The notes beneath the pieces are model-generated. The model was not told where the DNA came from. It ran no database searches and saw only the letters and a list, made by a program, of their open reading frames with translations. Below are positions 40,746-50,719 of a stretch of 64,000 nucleotides of DNA, piece by piece; position 1 is the first letter of the stretch, and each line of letters opens with the position of its first letter. This DNA is from Alphaproteobacteria bacterium (GTDB lineage: Bacteria > Pseudomonadota > Alphaproteobacteria > Micropepsales > Micropepsaceae), in assembly GCA_023259375.1 (NCBI GenBank), contig JAHFQC010000021.1, forward strand, positions 1-64,000. Reading direction: 5' to 3'. The translations under genes and the position numbers were made by a program.

Positions 40746-42059
40746 ATGAAGCGTATCGGTTTTTCCATCGCCGTCGCGGCGCTGTTTTGCGTCCCCGCCG
40801 CCGCCATGCACTACGATGTTCAGGTCGGCATCCGGCCGGACGCGCGCCGGCTTGATGCGACCGTGATCATCCGCGATCCGGTTTCGGAGCGCTTCTTCCT
40901 GCACAAGGATTTCGTGATCCAGTCGGTCATTGCCGACGGCAAGCCGGTCGCGTTCCACGTCGATCCTGCGGCCAAGACGACTCCGTTCACGCCGGAGGCG
41001 GTGACGATCGTTACCGAAGCCAGGGGCGCGAAGGTTCTGGAGGTGCGCTACGGCGGCAGCATGGTCAAGCCGATCGGCACGATCGAAATGCCGATCAACA
41101 ACATCGCGCCTGAACAGACCGAACTCGCAATTTACAGTTCCTGGTTTCCGATCTTTTCTCTCACCGAGAAATACACGTTCAAACTAACGGCGGCACTGCC
41201 GCAGAATTTGTCGACGTTTGCCAACGGCAAGCTGGTGGCGCAATCGACGGCGCAGGGGCGGACCACCACGGTTTGGACATCGGTCCAGCCCGTTTCCGAC
41301 ATGGCGTTGCTCGCGCTGCCCGGAATCAAGCGGAGCAAGGCCGGATCGCCGCCCGTCGAAATCGCCTATCGCGATCTGCCCGAGGATGCTGCCGCGAAAC
41401 TGCGCGACGGCGAGGCGGAGGCTCAGAAGCGGCTCAGCGCGCTCTACGGCACTCCACAAGCCAAGACAGGGCTGGAGATCGTTTTCACGCCGCGACCGGG
41501 CATGTGGTATTCGCGTCTGCCGTTGATGGTGATCTCCGAAGTCTACGCTTCGAACGACTTCAAGAAGGAGAGCGGCGAAGCCCAGGTCTTCCATAACGTG
41601 TCGCACGAATTGGCCCATCATTGGTGGACGATCGCCACGGCGGGGACGTTCGACGATTGGATCAACGAAGGTCTTGCTGAATATTCTGCGCTGCGACTGA
41701 CGCAGGAACGGTACGGCGAGGCGGCGGTCAAGCCGGTTCTGGCGCAATACCGCGAGGACGCCAAGAACAGCAAAAGCAACGATGTCATTGCCGAGACGGC
41801 GCACGAGTCGGCCGACAGGTACCTGAACCTCTATGAAAAGGCGTCGCTGATGTTCTTCGCGGCGCGCGAAAAGTTCGGCGACCAGGCGCTCGACGCGTTC
41901 CTGCGGGATTTCTATGGACGCTATGTCGGCACGAGCGGCGCCAATACGGCGGCATTCCTCGAACTCGCCCAGCAGCAGATGGGTCCGGAAGCGGCCGCGT
42001 TCTTCAAGGAAGAGCTTTATCGTCATCCGGCGGCAGGGGCGGTGGCCCAGAAAAAGTAA
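40746..42059 (+). CDS. Exported M1-like (gluzincin) metallopeptidase homologue, first copy
   Basis: 437 residues with a signal peptide (cleavage near AAA-MHYD). An N-terminal beta-rich domain precedes a thermolysin-like domain with HELAHHWW and, 16 residues later, NEGLAEYSA, then LYEKASLMFF where M1 enzymes have the transition-state Tyr (Y-x-KG). The spacing is 16 rather than the usual 18, and no GxMEN exopeptidase motif is visible, so aminopeptidase activity is doubtful. A paralogue lies at 43327. Periplasmic zinc peptidase or a binding protein derived from one. Confidence 0.82.
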   Translation: MKRIGFSIAVAALFCVPAAAMHYDVQVGIRPDARRLDATVIIRDPVSERFFLHKDFVIQSVIADGKPVAFHVDPAAKTTPFTPEAVTIVTEARGAKVLEVRYGGSMVKPIGTIEMPINNIAPEQTELAIYSSWFPIFSLTEKYTFKLTAALPQNLSTFANGKLVAQSTAQGRTTTVWTSVQPVSDMALLALPGIKRSKAGSPPVEIAYRDLPEDAAAKLRDGEAEAQKRLSALYGTPQAKTGLEIVFTPRPGMWYSRLPLMVISEVYASNDFKKESGEAQVFHNVSHELAHHWWTIATAGTFDDWINEGLAEYSALRLTQERYGEAAVKPVLAQYREDAKNSKSNDVIAETAHESADRYLNLYEKASLMFFAAREKFGDQALDAFLRDFYGRYVGTSGANTAAFLELAQQQMGPEAAAFFKEELYRHPAAGAVAQKK

Positions 42060-42171
42060 CCCTCGCCAAACACAGCATTTTTCCTAGCCAAGCCACGCTG
42101 TATGGGGGTGCCGCTCGGCAATAATATTGCCGAAATGTGCGGCATTCTGTGCTTGCGCCGCCCATCATTCA

Positions 42172-42200
42172 TGAAGTACTTCATATTGTAAAGTACTTCG
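42172..42200. promoter_or_regulatory. Repeated AAGTACTTC element before the first urcA-like gene
   Basis: ATGAAGTACTTCAT at 42171-42184 is a perfect palindrome, and AAGTACTTC recurs at 42191-42199, 17 bp further on. Two phased copies 50-75 bp before the UrcA gene suggest a regulator site; the factor is unknown. Confidence 0.45.
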
Positions 42201-42246
42201 CGTTGTCCTATGTGGTGGGGGTGGACATCACAGAAGGGACCTCACC

Positions 42247-42594
42247 ATGAAAAGCTTTTTGACCGGTGCCGTCGTTGCCGCCGCTTTGTTCGTCCCCGCA
42301 CTGGCCGAGGGACATTCCGTTCTCGTCTCCGGCATGGCGCCGATGCACAACGGCGGCTACCAGCTCAAAACCGTCGAAGTGGCCTACGATCTCGATCCCG
42401 CCACGCCGCACGGAGCAGAGGCGCTGCTGAACCGCATCAACGCAGCGGCGCGTCTCGTCTGCGGCGAGCGCTCCAGCTTGATCAAGAACAGCGAGCGCAC
42501 CAAGGAGTTCGACGCGTGCCGTGCGCGCGCCACGGCTCAAGCTGCTGAAGCCGCCGGTGTGCCTGATCTCGCCAAGATCGCGGCGACCCGTTGA
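42247..42594 (+). CDS. UrcA family exported protein (first copy)
   Basis: 115 residues with a signal peptide (about 1-21). The UrcA pattern is clear: VEVAYDLDPATPHGAEALLNRINAAARLVCG ... FDACRARATAQAAEAAGVPDL, with two conserved cysteines likely to form a disulfide. UrcA proteins are small periplasmic proteins of unknown function frequent in Caulobacterales, Sphingomonadales and relatives. Followed by its own terminator; a paralogue lies at 42895. Confidence 0.88.
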   Translation: MKSFLTGAVVAAALFVPALAEGHSVLVSGMAPMHNGGYQLKTVEVAYDLDPATPHGAEALLNRINAAARLVCGERSSLIKNSERTKEFDACRARATAQAAEAAGVPDLAKIAATR

Positions 42595-42603
42595 ATGCAA
42601 AGC

Positions 42604-42640
42604 AAGGGCGCTTACATCAGTGGTACCAAGCGCCCTTATT
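42604..42640 (+). terminator. Terminator after the first UrcA gene
   Basis: Perfect 10-bp stem AAGGGCGCTT/AAGCGCCCTT with a 14-base loop, followed by ATTGCTT; ten bases after the UrcA stop. The following 250 bp up to the next UrcA gene contain no ORF. Confidence 0.8.
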
Positions 42641-42796
42641 GCTTGCCGATGTGATTGTTCGCGATGACGTTTGCGTGATGATCGTCTCGTCACATCAGAT
42701 CGCGATTTATCCGCATTTTCGTGCGCCGCGATTTCGCCGCGAATGGCCGCAGAAAACCGCGGTAGTGTGAAACTCCAATATTCGCAGCTTCATTCA

Positions 42797-42810
42797 TCAC
42801 ATGCATGTGA
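42797..42810. promoter_or_regulatory. 14-bp palindrome upstream of the second UrcA gene
   Basis: TCACATGCATGTGA is a perfect palindrome 85 bp before the UrcA start. It could be an operator; it is not a standard CRP/FNR site (TGTGA-N6-TCACA) because the half-sites are inverted and abut. Confidence 0.4.
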
Positions 42811-42894
42811 CCCTTGCGATCGTATTTGCATCCTTTAAACGCCGTTGCGGCATCCCATCTCTGAATGCGTAATCAATCAGGAAGGGAAACGCTC

Positions 42895-43242
42895 ATGTAT
42901 CGCATGTTGTCTGCTTCTGCCGCCGTGGTGATGACCGCTTTGATGTTCGTGCCGGCCATGGCGCAATCCATCACAATCACTGGCTCGGCGCCGTCGCAGA
43001 CGGGCTATCAGGAAGTCCGGGCGATGAAGGTTTCGACGGCCGACGTCGATCTCAACACGGCCCAGGGCGCCACGATGCTGTTCGATCGCATCGACGCCGC
43101 CGCGCGCGCCGTCTGCGGCGAGAGTGCCGACATGACACCGGCCCGCGCCAAGGTGTTCGCGACCTGCCGCGCCCGTGCGGTGCATTACGCCGTCAAGGAA
43201 GTGGACGCGCCTCAGCTCACGCAGTTCGCTGCGGCCCGCTGA
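42895..43242 (+). CDS. UrcA family exported protein (second copy)
   Basis: 115 residues with a signal peptide (cleaved after AMA). Same pattern as the gene at 42247: VSTADVDLNTAQGATMLFDRIDAAARAVCG ... FATCRARAVHYAVKEVDAPQLTQFAAAR, two cysteines. It is closer to the UrcA consensus than the first copy. ATG 42895 has GGAAGGG upstream; the ORF-track start ten codons earlier lacks one. Own terminator, so each copy is an independent unit. Confidence 0.9.
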   Translation: MYRMLSASAAVVMTALMFVPAMAQSITITGSAPSQTGYQEVRAMKVSTADVDLNTAQGATMLFDRIDAAARAVCGESADMTPARAKVFATCRARAVHYAVKEVDAPQLTQFAAAR

Positions 43243-43256
43243 TCGGCCTGTCCGGC

Positions 43257-43290
43257 AAAGAGCGCCTCGTCCTCCGGGGGCGCTCTTTTC
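43257..43290 (+). terminator. Terminator after the second UrcA gene
   Basis: Perfect 10-bp stem AAAGAGCGCC/GGCGCTCTTT with a GC-rich loop, followed by TTCGTTTG; 15 bases after the stop. Confidence 0.85.
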
Positions 43291-43326
43291 GTTTGCCTAA
43301 CCGGGGGAACTTCGCTTGAGGGGACC

Positions 43327-44712
43327 ATGATCCGATTTGCTTTCTTTGCCGCCGCGCTGGCGCTCTTCGCGATGTCGGCAATCGCGGCCGCAACGGCAGA
43401 ACCCGTGCGCTACGATCTCAAGGCGCTGATCGAACCGGATGCCGGCAGTGTCGCCGTGCGCAGCACGGTCGCAATGCAGATCGATCCCAGTGCGCGGCAA
43501 ATCACGTTCGCTCTGCATCGCAGCTTTGTGGTCCATACGCTGAAGGTAGACGGCGTGCCGGCGAAGTTTTCGTATCAAGCAGTCGATGCCACGCCGTTCA
43601 ATCCGGCGGCGCGCAATGTCGTCGTCGATCTGCCGGCGCGCGCCGCCGCGGTCGTGAAGATGGATATCGCCTACGACGGCGAGCTGGAGACGCTGCCGGA
43701 ATGGGGCGCTTCACCGGACCGGAAAACGCTGGCGATGGACGATCAGGTGAACAGCCGGATGGTCCAGCTCGCGAGCTATTCCGCCTGGTATCCGCAATTC
43801 GCGCCGTTCGGCCGTCATTTCCAGACTGAAATGGAAATCTCGCTGCCAAAAGGATGGACGGCGGTGAGCGGCGGCACCAAGCGCGACGTGCCGTCGAAGG
43901 GACGGGCGGTGACGCATTGGTCGGTGCAGGACAATTTCGATCTCGCCTTCGCCGCGGCGCCCAACTTCAAAATCGTCAAGACAAACAGCTCCGGCGTGAA
44001 CATCGAAATCTATCACACCCAGATGCCCGAGAAGGTGATCGCAGGCGAGAGCACCGATCTCTCGGCCATGACCGCGTTTTTCAGCGGCGCATTCGGTGAA
44101 GCGAAAGTCCCCGGCGGCACGATCCGCCATGTCTATTCGCCGATGAAGAAGGGGCAGGGGCGTGCGGGTATTGCCCGCGCCGGCGTCATCATCACATCCG
44201 AGGGGCGGGTGCTGGAAGCGATGGCGGGGGACCCGAACTACACCTTGCTGCAGGACATCGCCCACGAGGTCGCGCATTTCTGGTGGCATTTCGGTTCGGG
44301 GCAGGGCGACTGGGTCAATGAAGCCTTTGCCGAATATTCCTCGGCGCTGGCGGTGCGCGAGATCGGTTCCAAGGGGCGGTTCGAAAGCGTTCTCGCCAAC
44401 TATCGCAAGTGCGTCGCCGGGTTGCCCGCCACTGCGCCGTCGCTGGCCACGGTTCCGCAGCAGGGCGGCGACTTCTATGTGCGCTACTACAAAGGCTCGC
44501 TGATGCTCGACGACTTCCGCCGCATCATGGGCGATGACGCCTTCATCGCCGCCGCGCGCGAGTTCTACCAGACCTACAAGAACACACCGACCGGCACTGC
44601 CGAGTTCCGCAGCTTCTGGCGCGCGCGCATCGACGGCGCCCGCGTGGACGCGTGGCTCGATCAGGGCGGATCGGCGCTTCCTACCAGCGCTGATGCACGT
44701 GCGGCGCAATGA
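43327..44712 (+). CDS. Exported M1-like (gluzincin) metallopeptidase homologue, second copy
   Basis: 461 residues with a signal peptide (about 1-24). Zinc motif HEVAHFWW, then 14 residues to NEAFAEYSS, then YYKGSLML in the M1 Y-KG position. No GxMEN. The overall plan matches the 40746 protein, but sequence identity is low and the spacing of the third zinc ligand differs (14 against 16; classical M1 is 18). A Cys in NYRKCVAGL may be single. Its 3' end overlaps the convergent aldo/keto reductase gene by 32 bp. Confidence 0.82.
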   Translation: MIRFAFFAAALALFAMSAIAAATAEPVRYDLKALIEPDAGSVAVRSTVAMQIDPSARQITFALHRSFVVHTLKVDGVPAKFSYQAVDATPFNPAARNVVVDLPARAAAVVKMDIAYDGELETLPEWGASPDRKTLAMDDQVNSRMVQLASYSAWYPQFAPFGRHFQTEMEISLPKGWTAVSGGTKRDVPSKGRAVTHWSVQDNFDLAFAAAPNFKIVKTNSSGVNIEIYHTQMPEKVIAGESTDLSAMTAFFSGAFGEAKVPGGTIRHVYSPMKKGQGRAGIARAGVIITSEGRVLEAMAGDPNYTLLQDIAHEVAHFWWHFGSGQGDWVNEAFAEYSSALAVREIGSKGRFESVLANYRKCVAGLPATAPSLATVPQQGGDFYVRYYKGSLMLDDFRRIMGDDAFIAAAREFYQTYKNTPTGTAEFRSFWRARIDGARVDAWLDQGGSALPTSADARAAQ

Positions 44713-46836: not shown

Positions 46837-46990
46837 GTTTGTCCCTCGAACAACGCCCGCGCCTTGTAGCATCGCCGAATGTCCTCCCGCTTCACGTCGA
46901 TGTGATGGCCGCGCGCCTTTCGGGGGCGTGCAGAGGCGACCCGCTATGTTACATTACGAATATATACCTATTGCCGTTTTTCGAGAAATA

Positions 46991-47009
46991 CATATTGATA
47001 ATCGATATG
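46991..47009. promoter_or_regulatory. Imperfect palindrome in the promoter region of the five-gene operon
   Basis: CATATTGATAATCGATATG is a 19-bp near-palindrome in a markedly AT-rich stretch (46950-47030), 31 bp before the first start codon. It is a reasonable binding site for the XRE regulator encoded in the operon, but no second copy supports it. Confidence 0.4.
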
Positions 47010-47039
47010 TTCGCATTGTCTCTCGATAAGGAGGGTCCC

Positions 47040-47279
47040 ATGAATACCCGTCAGGCCGCGTTGGGCGCAGGAGTGGCCGTCCTTTTGGTGTTCGGCGCCG
47101 ATGCCAATCCGGCTGGCGCCCAGGTAGCGACGGCGCTCCAGGCGTCGGCATCACAACCTGCCTGCGGCGGGATCAAAGAGGCGGTGCGCGACGCGGCAAA
47201 GCACGCCGGCACTGTCGTGCTCGATGTGGCGCTCGACGCCGCGGGCGAGCTTTTGGCGCGCGCCAAACAGATTTTCTAG
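47040..47279 (+). CDS. Small exported protein at the head of the DUF2975/XRE/protease operon
   Basis: 79 residues. Signal peptide of about 27 residues (LGAGVAVLLVFGADANPAGA), leaving a mature peptide of about 52 with one Cys (QPACGGIKEAVRD) and an amphipathic helical C-terminus (VVLDVALDAAGELLARAKQIF). Strong SD AAGGAGGG precedes ATG 47040. Seven to nine bases separate it from the next gene, so it belongs to the operon. No known family; candidate ligand, substrate or effector of the downstream membrane protein and proteases. Confidence 0.65.
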   Translation: MNTRQAALGAGVAVLLVFGADANPAGAQVATALQASASQPACGGIKEAVRDAAKHAGTVVLDVALDAAGELLARAKQIF

Positions 47280-47288
47280 GAGGGGATG

Positions 47289-47951
47289 ATGAAAGACACA
47301 CGCTGGATCGCCCGGCTGCTGAAATGGCTTTTCGTGGTTTGCATGGTCGGCTGCGCCATCGGTGCGGCGGCTGTGGCGCTTGTCATGGTGATCGATCCGA
47401 AGCTGTCCAGCCTGGGCGGCAATGCGCATTTCAATTTCGACATTCTGGGCCAGGGCGGAACCGTGACACTGTCGAACAAGACCGCGGCGGCCGACTGGAT
47501 GCGCGGCAACGTGCATGTGCAGGTCAACGATGCCAACGGACTGTTCGAGGTGATCAAGCATCACGGCTTGCTGCTGGCGCTGATGTTCACGGTTTTCTAT
47601 GCGGTGCTGTTCGATCTTCTGCGCCGCCTGTTCCGCAATGTCGTGCGCGGCGATAGTTTTACCCGCAATACCCTGCGGCTGGTGCAGGTCATCGGCTTGG
47701 CCCTGGTGGTGTTCTCGTTCGTGTCGGCGGCCGCCGAGGGCTGGTTCTATTTCGCCCTAACCGATTACCTGACCCATCACGCCTCGGCCACCTTGGCGGG
47801 CTCGCCGGTGCCGGGTAACACATTCGACTTCGACAGCGAGGGCGGCGGCGTCTTCAACTCGCTATTCCTGACGGGGCTGCTGGTGCTGGCGTTGTCGGAA
47901 GTGTTCCGCCAGGGATTGGTGCTAAAGAACGAGAACGATCTGACGGTTTGA
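47289..47951 (+). CDS. DUF2975 membrane protein
   Basis: About 220 residues, four TM helices (about 10-35, 95-115, 135-160, 190-210) with one soluble loop after TM1 (SSLGGNAHFNFDILGQGG). RRLFRNVVRGDSFTRNTLRLVQVIGLALV is the DUF2975 signature. DUF2975 genes are typically followed by a small XRE regulator (the Bacillus yoaS/yozG arrangement), as here, and may act as its membrane partner. ATG 47289 suits the AGGAGG spacing better than ATG 47286. Confidence 0.85.
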   Translation: MKDTRWIARLLKWLFVVCMVGCAIGAAAVALVMVIDPKLSSLGGNAHFNFDILGQGGTVTLSNKTAAADWMRGNVHVQVNDANGLFEVIKHHGLLLALMFTVFYAVLFDLLRRLFRNVVRGDSFTRNTLRLVQVIGLALVVFSFVSAAAEGWFYFALTDYLTHHASATLAGSPVPGNTFDFDSEGGGVFNSLFLTGLLVLALSEVFRQGLVLKNENDLTV

Positions 47952-47953
47952 CG

Positions 47954-48187
47954 ATGGCGATCAAACTCAACCTCGACCGGGTGATGTTCGAACGGAAGAT
48001 CAGTCTGACCGAACTGGCCGAACGGATCGGCATCACCCTGGCCAACCTCTCGATCCTCAAGAACAACAAGGCGCGTGCGATCCGCTTTTCCACGCTGGAT
48101 GCCTTGTGCCGCACGCTCAACTGCCAGCCGGGCGATATCATCGAGTGGGTTCCGGGTGAGCCCGAAAAGGACGACGATCATGAATGA
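47954..48187 (+). CDS. XRE family regulator (YozG-like)
   Basis: 77 residues, almost only an HTH: IKLNLDRVMFERKISLTELAERIGITLANLSILKNNKARAIRFSTLDALCRTLNCQPGDIIEW. This is the short HTH type paired with DUF2975 proteins. It starts two bases after the DUF2975 stop (a TTG at 47948 overlapping that stop is an alternative) and overlaps the next gene by eight bases. Likely autoregulator of this operon. Confidence 0.92.
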   Translation: MAIKLNLDRVMFERKISLTELAERIGITLANLSILKNNKARAIRFSTLDALCRTLNCQPGDIIEWVPGEPEKDDDHE

Positions 48188-49475
48188 CACGGGCTGGCGC
48201 CGCTGGGGACTTGCGGCGATGGGGTTTTGTACGGCTTTGCTGATGACGCAGGCCGTGAACGCCGAGCCGGTGCTGAATGCCGAAACCGCCAGGACGGTTT
48301 TCACCGAAGCCAAAGCGGTCTCCGACAAGGACGGCGGAGCGCTATGGGGCATGACGCTGTTCGGCCCGATGATGATCGTCGATCCCGATACGAGGAAGTT
48401 GATCGCCAGCGTACCGGACGACACGTTGAAAGCCGAGGGCGGGGTCTTTGTCGGCACGATGCCGAAGGACATGCTGCCCGCCAACACGGCGCTCGACTGG
48501 CACGGCAAGCGCTGGACCATGCTGGAATGGCCGGTCTGGGGCAATCGGCAGGAACGGGCGCGTCTTCTGGCGCACGAACAGTTCCACCGCCTGCAGCCGG
48601 CGTTGCATCTGGCGCCGACCGAGGCCGCCAATCCGCAGCTCGATACGCTGGAGGGCAGGCTGTGGCTGCAGCTCGAATGGCGGGCACTGGCGGTGGCGCT
48701 CACCTCCTCGGGCAAGGCGCGCACCGAGGCCATCCGCGATGCGCTGGCGTTTCACGACCGTCGCGATGTTCTGTTCGCCGGAGCTTCCGCGCACGAACGC
48801 GGTCTTCTGCTCAACGAAGGCGTGGCCGAATACACCGGCATTCGCGTTGCATCAGCCGACACGGCGTCGGCACAGTGGATCGCGGCGGGCAAACTGCTCT
48901 CGAGTAAAGAAAAGACCTGGGTGCGGTCGTTTCCATATGTTTCAGGCCCCGCCTATGGCTTGCTTCTTGATGCGTATGCGCCGGGCTGGCGGGCCAAGCT
49001 GACTGCGCAATCCGATCTTCCTTCACTGCTGGCTGCGGCACTGCCGAAAGCTGCGCCGGTGAATGCGTTGGCGCGCGCCAAGCGCTATGGCGAGGCCGAA
49101 CTGCGTCTCGCCGAGACCGAACGGGCGGCGGAAAACGAAGCGGTGCGCAAGGCCTATCGCGCCAAGCTGATCGACGGGCCGGTCCTGGTTCTTCCCAATC
49201 TGGGCCAGCACTTCAACGTCAGCTTCGATCCGCGCGAACTGGTGCCGCTCGACGAAGCGGGGACCGTCTATCCCACTATCACGGTCAGCGACGACTGGGG
49301 TTCGCTCTCGGTCAAGGAAGGTGCACTGATGTCGCCGGATTGGCAGCGGATCACCGTGTCCGCGCCCTCTGACGCCAAGACGCTCGCAGGAGCCGGCTGG
49401 AAACTGGAACTGGCGGCAGGCTGGAAACTGGTTCCCGCGGAAAAGCCGGGCAGCTTCACGGTGAAAAAGGACTGA
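48180..49475 (+). CDS. Exported gluzincin-like protein with HEQFH and NEGVAEY motifs
   Basis: 431 residues with a signal peptide (about 1-28, ending in VNA-EP). It has LLAHEQFHRLQPAL (HExxH) near residue 140, LLNEGVAEYTGI near 212, and SGPAYGLLLDAY further on: the same order of zinc-site elements as in M1-like enzymes but with an insert of about 70 residues between the zinc helices. The C-terminal about 130 residues are beta-rich. I do not recognise a named family. It overlaps the XRE gene (ATGA-type), and the aspartic protease gene starts two bases after its stop. Confidence 0.75.
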   Translation: MNDTGWRRWGLAAMGFCTALLMTQAVNAEPVLNAETARTVFTEAKAVSDKDGGALWGMTLFGPMMIVDPDTRKLIASVPDDTLKAEGGVFVGTMPKDMLPANTALDWHGKRWTMLEWPVWGNRQERARLLAHEQFHRLQPALHLAPTEAANPQLDTLEGRLWLQLEWRALAVALTSSGKARTEAIRDALAFHDRRDVLFAGASAHERGLLLNEGVAEYTGIRVASADTASAQWIAAGKLLSSKEKTWVRSFPYVSGPAYGLLLDAYAPGWRAKLTAQSDLPSLLAAALPKAAPVNALARAKRYGEAELRLAETERAAENEAVRKAYRAKLIDGPVLVLPNLGQHFNVSFDPRELVPLDEAGTVYPTITVSDDWGSLSVKEGALMSPDWQRITVSAPSDAKTLAGAGWKLELAAGWKLVPAEKPGSFTVKKD

Positions 49476-49477
49476 CG

Positions 49478-50719
49478 ATGATACTCAAGGGGCGTTTTCT
49501 GGCAGCCGCGGTTGCCGGGCTGGTATTGGCGTGTTCTGCGTCGGCGGAAACGCCGGTCGAAGCCGCCATCAGGGGCAACGACGTGACTGCGCTGGACGCG
49601 CTGGCCGTCAGCGCAGCCTCTGCTGACGAGCGCGCGCTGGCACGAGGAACGGCACTGGCGCTGCGCCATAAAGATTCGGCGGCACTGGCGCTGCTGCAGC
49701 CGCTCGGCAAGCATGCTGCCAATCCCGCCATCGCGGTGGCGGCCGATCTCGGGGCGGCGGCTGTCTTCTTGCGCCAAAGCCGGTTCGCCGAAGTTTGCCG
49801 CATGTACGCGTCTGTCGAAGCCCTGAAACAGCCGCTCGATCACGATCAGATGCAGACCTACGGCTTCGCCAAACTGCTGACGCACGAAAAGCCGATGGCC
49901 GTGAAACGCCGTGCCGCCGGACGCCTTGCGGTGACGCGGGATATGGCGGGCTTGGCGCGCGTTCCGGTTTCCGCAGGCGGCGCGACCGTCGATGCAATCG
50001 TCGATACCGGCGCAGGATTTTCGACGCTGACCGAAAGCGCCGCCAAAAAGCTTGGCGTTCGTTTGGTGGCGGGAACCGCGACGGTGAAATCGACCACCCG
50101 GGACGATCTTCCCGCCCGCCTCGGCATTGCCGCGAAGCTTCAGTTCGGCGATGCGGTGCTGACCGATGTCGTGTTCATCGTCCTGCCCGATAGCGCGCTC
50201 AGCTTCGCCGAAGGCAAGTACACGATCGACGTCATCATCGGTTTGCCGGTGTTCGAAGCGTTGGGCCGTCTCGAACTGGCGCGCGAGGATCGCGAACGGC
50301 TTTATTACGGCGCCAAGCCGGGCGCAGCGCCGGAGCCGTCGAACCTGCTGCTGGACGGCGTGCAGCCGATCATCTTGGCGAGGGCCGGGGATGCCAATCT
50401 GCGCCTGTTCGTCGATACCGGCGCCAATACCACCGATCTCAACAGCTCGGCGGGACGCGAATTCCCGGCGCTGATGACGGGCGCGGTCAAAGCCAAATCC
50501 AATCTCGGCGGGGCGGGCGGCGTTCTCGAGGATGCCGACGCGATGAAAATCCCGGCGCTGACGCTTTCGGTCGGCACGCGCAATTTCGATCTCAAGGCGG
50601 TGACGGTGCGCTCGAAGGCGATCGACGGCCACCACGGCGATATCGGCCAGGACCTGCTGCAGCAGGGCAAGCGCTGGGCGTTCGATTTCAACGCGATGAG
50701 CTTCAGCGTTTCGGAGTGA
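49478..50719 (+). CDS. Exported two-domain retropepsin-like aspartic protease
   Basis: 413 residues with a signal peptide (cleaved after ASA). A helical repeat region (25-140) is followed by two retropepsin-like domains, each with a catalytic DTGA: AIVDTGAGFSTLT near 170 and LFVDTGANTTDLN near 310. Retropepsins act as dimers of one-Asp domains, so the duplication could give a self-contained active enzyme. It closes the five-gene operon. Its 3' end overlaps the opposing methyltransferase gene by 17 bp. Confidence 0.85.
   Translation: MILKGRFLAAAVAGLVLACSASAETPVEAAIRGNDVTALDALAVSAASADERALARGTALALRHKDSAALALLQPLGKHAANPAIAVAADLGAAAVFLRQSRFAEVCRMYASVEALKQPLDHDQMQTYGFAKLLTHEKPMAVKRRAAGRLAVTRDMAGLARVPVSAGGATVDAIVDTGAGFSTLTESAAKKLGVRLVAGTATVKSTTRDDLPARLGIAAKLQFGDAVLTDVVFIVLPDSALSFAEGKYTIDVIIGLPVFEALGRLELAREDRERLYYGAKPGAAPEPSNLLLDGVQPIILARAGDANLRLFVDTGANTTDLNSSAGREFPALMTGAVKAKSNLGGAGGVLEDADAMKIPALTLSVGTRNFDLKAVTVRSKAIDGHHGDIGQDLLQQGKRWAFDFNAMSFSVSE

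Follow-up and report, generated by a model that had tools for sequence, protein, structure and literature searches.

Do five tightly packed genes in an alphaproteobacterial genome form one system, or a smaller conserved unit to which further genes have been attached? The question is posed by positions 47040-50719 of a 64,000-nucleotide stretch of contig JAHFQC010000021.1, from a member of the Micropepsaceae (the whole stretch analyzed is referred to as the window). A preliminary description had placed here an operon for a small exported peptide, a DUF2975 membrane protein, a short XRE-type regulator and two protease-like proteins. Comparison across 96 genomes of the family shows that the conserved system consists of an operator, the small exported peptide, DUF2975 and the HTH_26 repressor, which are jointly inherited. 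The two protease genes are cargo of a modular operon and not part of its core.

Five open reading frames (ORFs) fill the interval on the + strand, and a codon-usage gene caller picks exactly the same five, bearing out the original account of a tightly coupled gene set on one strand at this place. The intergenic distances along it are 6, 2, -8 and 2 bp; of the junctions first given, the two 2-bp gaps and the 8-bp overlap stand and the leading gap, put at about 9 bp, is corrected. The first gene (47040-47279) encodes the peptide of 79 residues, the second (47286-47951) a 221-residue DUF2975 membrane protein of a long subfamily, and the third (47954-48187), the XRE gene, a 77-residue HTH_26 small DNA-binding protein of the Cro/C1 type that is the presumed autorepressor. 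Both domain assignments lie above the curated Pfam cut-offs (PF11188, 59.2 bits against 27 bits; PF13443, 85.5 bits against 22 bits). Export of the peptide and of the HExxH and DTGA proteins encoded by the last two genes is predicted from hydrophobic N-termini alone.

The closest comparison is the sister species Rhizomicrobium electricum DSM 21034 (L086/L126), in which the first four genes recur with identical junctions of 6, 2 and -8 bp. Identity between the two species is 78% for the peptide, 90% for DUF2975, 97% for XRE and 82% for the HExxH protein, and the corresponding ratios of nonsynonymous to synonymous substitution rates (dN/dS) are 0.22, 0.11, 0.03 and 0.17; all four genes are under purifying selection. 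Because the four genes and their junctions recur and the dN/dS ratios are low, the clustering is more than chance. Chance adjacency, which the preliminary description had named as fatal to its proposal, is thus not what the first four genes exhibit; the DTGA gene lies elsewhere in R. electricum.

The peptide gene is found directly upstream of a long-form DUF2975 gene at nine loci (the window, L086, L087, L032, L095, L103, L104, L105 and L115), and the order peptide-DUF2975-XRE is kept at all nine, DUF2975 being separated by 2-14 bp from the gene that follows it. The nine products are exported-looking and 72-102 residues long. The window peptide matches no accepted Pfam or NCBIfam family and has a conserved amphipathic C-terminus ending in DVALDAAGELLARAKQIF, and the C-terminal motif D..[AG]...[KR]Q[FM] is present in eight of the nine peptides and in none of 5013 other ORFs. 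The nine are one family: in a leave-one-out profile test each held-out peptide ranks first among ~5000 decoy ORFs (E-values from 1e-13 to 3e-4), and a family-wide profile search gives strong matches at the nine peptide loci only. Conservation acts at the protein level, since conserved residues use different codons and the DUF2975 ribosome-binding site sits past the peptide stop codon. The C-terminal segments are amphipathic (hydrophobic moment, muH, about 0.4) and of near neutral or acidic charge. At one locus (L095 5264-6872, genome G017) a tandem DUF2975 pair follows a single peptide, the second copy being strongly diverged. The 3' end of the window peptide gene also holds a perfect 16-bp palindrome, TTTGGCGCGCGCCAAA (47252-47267), followed by a short T-rich tail; it is preserved only in part in R. 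electricum and is missing from the other peptide genes, and we do not argue for a terminator or attenuator here.

Alignment of the nine orthologous upstream regions shows that the 65 bp before the peptide gene are conserved as CCTATTGYTGTTTATCGATAAATATGTATTGTATATCGATATTGATGCATCGTTTTTCGATAA, comprising three direct repeats ~21 bp apart. In the window this candidate promoter/operator (46966-47031, + strand) has its TATCGATA-type repeats at about 46978, 47000 and 47021; the last of them extends into the Shine-Dalgarno sequence that serves the peptide gene. A putative operator function is suggested by the alignment, the motif positions and a family-wide pattern search: when as many as three mismatches are allowed, 11 of the 96 genomes contain the first repeat, at one site in each and always before a DUF2975 operon. 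These are the genomes of the nine peptide loci together with G052 and G081. The sites stand before the peptide where it is present and otherwise before DUF2975, and the chance of finding a site of this type in a random 300-bp stretch of these loci is 0.06. On the simplest reading the HTH_26 protein would autoregulate its own operon and have no other targets. A wider regulon was rejected on the single operator site per genome, invariably at the DUF2975 operon.

Peptide-bearing loci sit between tig and clpP-clpX-lon wherever the contig is long enough, frequently with aldo-keto reductase and alpha/beta hydrolase genes as neighbors. Most of the 20 relatives without the operon have clpP directly after tig, or one to three unrelated genes after tig. 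In a Tig/ClpP/ClpX tree the operon-bearing genomes form one clade, within which L196 has lost the operon altogether and L088 (6100-6400, genome G021) shows an internal deletion. The deletion took the operator, the peptide, DUF2975 and the 5' half of XRE and left the HExxH gene intact with its 8-bp overlap; it constitutes a natural test of the need of the HExxH protease for the sensor. The same tig-clpP interval of the window holds, at 40746-44712, genes for exported proteins of 437 and 461 residues, the second weakly resembling M1 aminopeptidases, and for two related 115-residue exported proteins whose family recurs beside the operon in relatives.

The gene neighborhoods of these relatives rule out a fixed five-gene unit. 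The two proteases had been taken as part of the system, to be checked by counting their genes beside DUF2975-XRE cores, and the count goes the other way: neither is present at five of the nine core loci (L095, L103, L104, L105 and L115). The HExxH gene, which joined the operon in one subclade, follows XRE in four genomes (the subclade of the window, L086 and L088, plus L087), each time with the 8-bp overlap. In five further genomes it lies outside any peptide-DUF2975 operon, including G062, whose operon is without it, and such isolated copies fall outside the operator control pattern. The DTGA gene follows the core in two genomes, after HExxH in the window and after XRE, with an 8-bp overlap, in L032; the third close relative is the R. 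electricum gene, on another contig from the operon there. A DUF2975-protease adjacency at L094 was rejected as a link, the protease belonging to a different family branch and lying upstream of the operator. Both proteases are found together at the operon, completing the five-gene set, only in the window genome, and for this reason the regulated envelope proteolysis suggested earlier can be no more than a use that one lineage makes of the module.

The HExxH protein (48180-49475, + strand, 431 residues) is a putative gluzincin-like zinc peptidase. Residues H132, E133, H136, E213 and E217 are invariant in eight relatives, providing the HExxH motif with a downstream Glu ligand, and the second motif, NEGxAEY in the window protein, is NEGxxEYTG-like. 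The protein may on this argument be a gluzincin, the motif alone not being family-defining. It matches no Pfam or NCBIfam family and no sequence in the Protein Data Bank (PDB), and was not found in the other genomes of the class that were sampled. Its AlphaFold model is of moderate confidence (pLDDT 75.3), and a Foldseek search with it gave no significant neighbor, MATCAP and M1 enzymes falling far below threshold. The DTGA protein (49478-50719, + strand, 413 residues) matches PF13650 above cut-off in two stretches (63.2 bits), with DTGA at residues 176 and 313, and is thereby assigned two retropepsin-like domains; at 37.2 bits against a curated cut-off of 57.95 it is not a member of TIGR02281, the clan AA DTGA subfamily. 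The catalytic motifs of both proteins are intact and predict peptidase activity. Bacterial precedent for the second is RloA of Pseudomonas aeruginosa, representing secreted retropepsin-like peptidases, one of which shares its operon with a membrane protein of the envelope (PMC12239564). The window protein would likewise be an exported aspartic protease of retropepsin fold, but it carries two DTGA domains (PF13650) in one chain and its operon contains no ATP-grasp or transglutaminase gene.

Some form of DUF2975 is present in 46 of the 96 Micropepsaceae genomes. The long form, of ~223 residues with the C-terminal end SEVFRQGLxLKxxxDLT[VI], is found in 13, with a weak match in a fourteenth, and in none of the other genomes of the class sampled. 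A long-form DUF2975-HTH pair without a peptide was also seen in an uncultured proteobacterium outside the Micropepsaceae set (L137 330-830). The AlphaFold model of the window protein, built from 13 sequences and of moderate confidence (pLDDT 69.5), has four long helices, in agreement with the four transmembrane (TM) segments noted at the outset, and, between TM1 and TM2, a small beta domain predicted to be extracytoplasmic. A claudin/TARP-like fold was considered and set aside, the best E-value (0.19) being non-significant; the resemblance is one of topology at most.

Across the class, DUF2975 genes occur in 55 of 385 genomes. At the loci with callable genes a DNA-binding gene usually follows directly, and neither a protease nor a peptide of the Micropepsaceae type was seen. 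DUF2975-HTH pairs are also present in Streptomyces, Klebsiella and Vibrio plasmids; no peptide was found upstream of DUF2975 in Streptomyces, Gemmatirosa or Novosphingobium plasmids. One Klebsiella pneumoniae plasmid, pKP700 (L277), has the pair beside genes for a MipA/OmpV protein, a serine hydrolase, a diacylglycerol kinase and a HAMP histidine kinase, and a relative of its HTH protein is found on 64 Klebsiella plasmids.

A second family, f12 (handle G416), probably the Sphingomonadaceae as a guess from gene content, does have an exported peptide at this position. Two of its loci carry a 43-45-residue exported peptide ahead of DUF2975, and 23 of the 30 best-scoring DUF2975-HTH_26 loci of the family have a peptide different from that of the Micropepsaceae 19-54 bp ahead of DUF2975, with a further one at L256. 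These peptides have 38-50 residues, end in approximately APxLA and share the consensus M[TS]R...AAA.AA.LIV....P.VTVPPA.AA....AP.LA; 22 of the 23 end in A, and A-P-x-L-A is present in 17 of 23 against 2 of 1542 other ORFs, counted on the same family that defined the motif. At 21 of the 23 loci, sites of the TATCGATA type precede the peptide; at peptide-less loci they lie mostly within 75 bp of DUF2975. The chance of such a site in a random 300-bp f12 stretch is 0.15. In a midpoint-rooted DUF2975 tree all f12 proteins from loci with a peptide cluster together, and lineages lacking a peptide separate this cluster from the Micropepsaceae group. As the peptide sequences are unrelated and the two groups separate, operons of this kind probably acquired unrelated peptide genes, in the same position, on two or more occasions. 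The extension of the DUF2975-XRE pair by a small exported peptide, as first described, is thus conserved at nine loci and recurrent in a second family. Two copies of an f12-type peptide stand in tandem ahead of DUF2975 at L258 (915-1245). Loci of a third family, f63 (L233 2236-2352 and L240 2200-2316), have a 38-residue peptide, almost entirely one hydrophobic helix, 125-142 bp ahead of DUF2975.

Comparative genomics thus establishes the operon, the peptide family, the single-copy operators, their joint inheritance and the recurrence with a different peptide. We give an even chance to the interpretation that this is an autoregulated module of peptide, membrane protein and repressor, to which two protease-like cargo genes were added in the window lineage. 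The HTH_26 protein would bind the three TATCGATA-type repeats overlapping its own promoter and so repress the whole operon. The peptide would be exported by the Sec route, and the conserved amphipathic helix at its C-terminus would be read by, or seated on, DUF2975 in the inner membrane. A change in the level or integrity of the peptide, through envelope stress, proteolysis or neighboring cells, would then alter DUF2975, which would capture or release the repressor at the membrane and switch the operon. In the window genome the two exported protease-like proteins would be co-induced and could, if active, cut the peptide or help manage the envelope condition that the module senses. The original suggestion that the membrane protein senses the peptide is consistent with the comparative data and with the beta ectodomain of the model. 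Going further, one may tentatively suppose that DUF2975-HTH_26 pairs are receptors for exported micro-peptides, a Gram-negative sensing architecture of peptide, 4-TM receptor and dedicated autorepressor into which unrelated peptides were recruited at least twice, and that in the soil bacterium Rhizomicrobium it also drives two exported proteases; we consider this possible rather than probable. Several observations weigh against a peptide-sensing module. Most DUF2975-HTH_26 pairs in other bacteria lack such a peptide, which implies that DUF2975 can work without one, and four long-subfamily loci (L094, L101, L108 and L122) have the same operator sites directly before DUF2975 and no peptide. The L104 peptide lacks the KQF/M end, the DUF2975 model found no significant neighbor in a fold search of the PDB, and the f12 sample comprises the best-scoring loci only.

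Short Sec-exported pre-peptides that have a conserved extreme C-terminus and are co-transcribed with a regulator are familiar from the Gram-positive pheromones of the Phr/PapR/NprX type. The window operon likewise sets a short pre-peptide with a conserved extreme C-terminus beside a presumed regulator, but its proteins give no TPR (RRNPP) match in Pfam and the presumed reader is the membrane protein DUF2975. The general architecture, a signal-like N-terminus, a variable linker and a conserved extreme C-terminus in most of the peptides, more resembles a processed ligand than a small structural subunit that serves DUF2975 folding or localization and carries no signal of its own. We therefore regard the subunit explanation as unlikely, the more so as DUF2975 works elsewhere without a peptide, even though the strict first-cistron position, the co-inheritance, the short hydrophobic sequences with no recognizable domain and the nearly all-helical peptide of f63 (L233, L240) would suit it.

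By analogy with SdpC-SdpI-SdpR of Bacillus subtilis, in which an exported peptide is accompanied by two products of one operon, an integral membrane protein and the small repressor that controls this operon (PMC6818787), the peptide might instead kill at the membrane, with DUF2975 protecting the producer and the HTH protein repressing until peptide is bound. The same three roles would fall in one regulated unit, as in sdpRI (PMC6818787), and the C-terminal segment is amphipathic (muH about 0.4) and differs in sequence between families. The likeness is however one of function: the repressor belongs to HTH_26 and the membrane protein to DUF2975, neither an SdpI-type immunity protein nor an ArsR-type SdpR is encoded, and Pfam at E<=1 returns only DUF2975 and HTH-type matches. 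Moreover, the C-terminal segments are not cationic, no sdpAB-like maturation genes or dedicated exporter lie nearby, the C-termini are strongly conserved between species, unlike those of most bacteriocins, and the DUF2975-HTH pair persists in many lineages that have no peptide. A toxin-immunity role is accordingly doubtful. Least probable is a five-gene system for regulated envelope proteolysis whose purpose would lie in the two proteases, acting on the peptide or on a substrate sensed by DUF2975. Tight translational coupling speaks for it, including the 8-bp overlap of XRE with HExxH, kept in four genomes, and that of XRE with the DTGA gene in L032, as do the intact catalytic motifs; but the absence of both proteases from most core loci, their co-occurrence in a single genome and the persistence of HExxH apart from the core, in L088 and in five other genomes, make it very unlikely.

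DUF2975 and HTH_26 genes are paired in yoaS-yozG of Bacillus subtilis, and pairs of this kind extend over several bacterial phyla and resistance plasmids. The window operon shares with them both domains above cut-off and the downstream position of the DNA-binding gene; it differs in that its DUF2975 belongs to a long subfamily which has a larger ectodomain and is nearly restricted to the Micropepsaceae, and in its exported-peptide head and protease cargo. The pair is already known, as a gene pair only. A literature search, which most subscription journals lay outside, yielded almost nothing informative on DUF2975, yozG or peptide heads and no description of a peptide-headed DUF2975-HTH_26 module. 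The recurrent exported peptide offers a first concrete handle on a possible stimulus of DUF2975. Its recurrence in a second family, with an unrelated sequence, suggests an undescribed mode of envelope sensing; if the proposed module is correct, Gram-negative bacteria would possess a new kind of peptide sensing.

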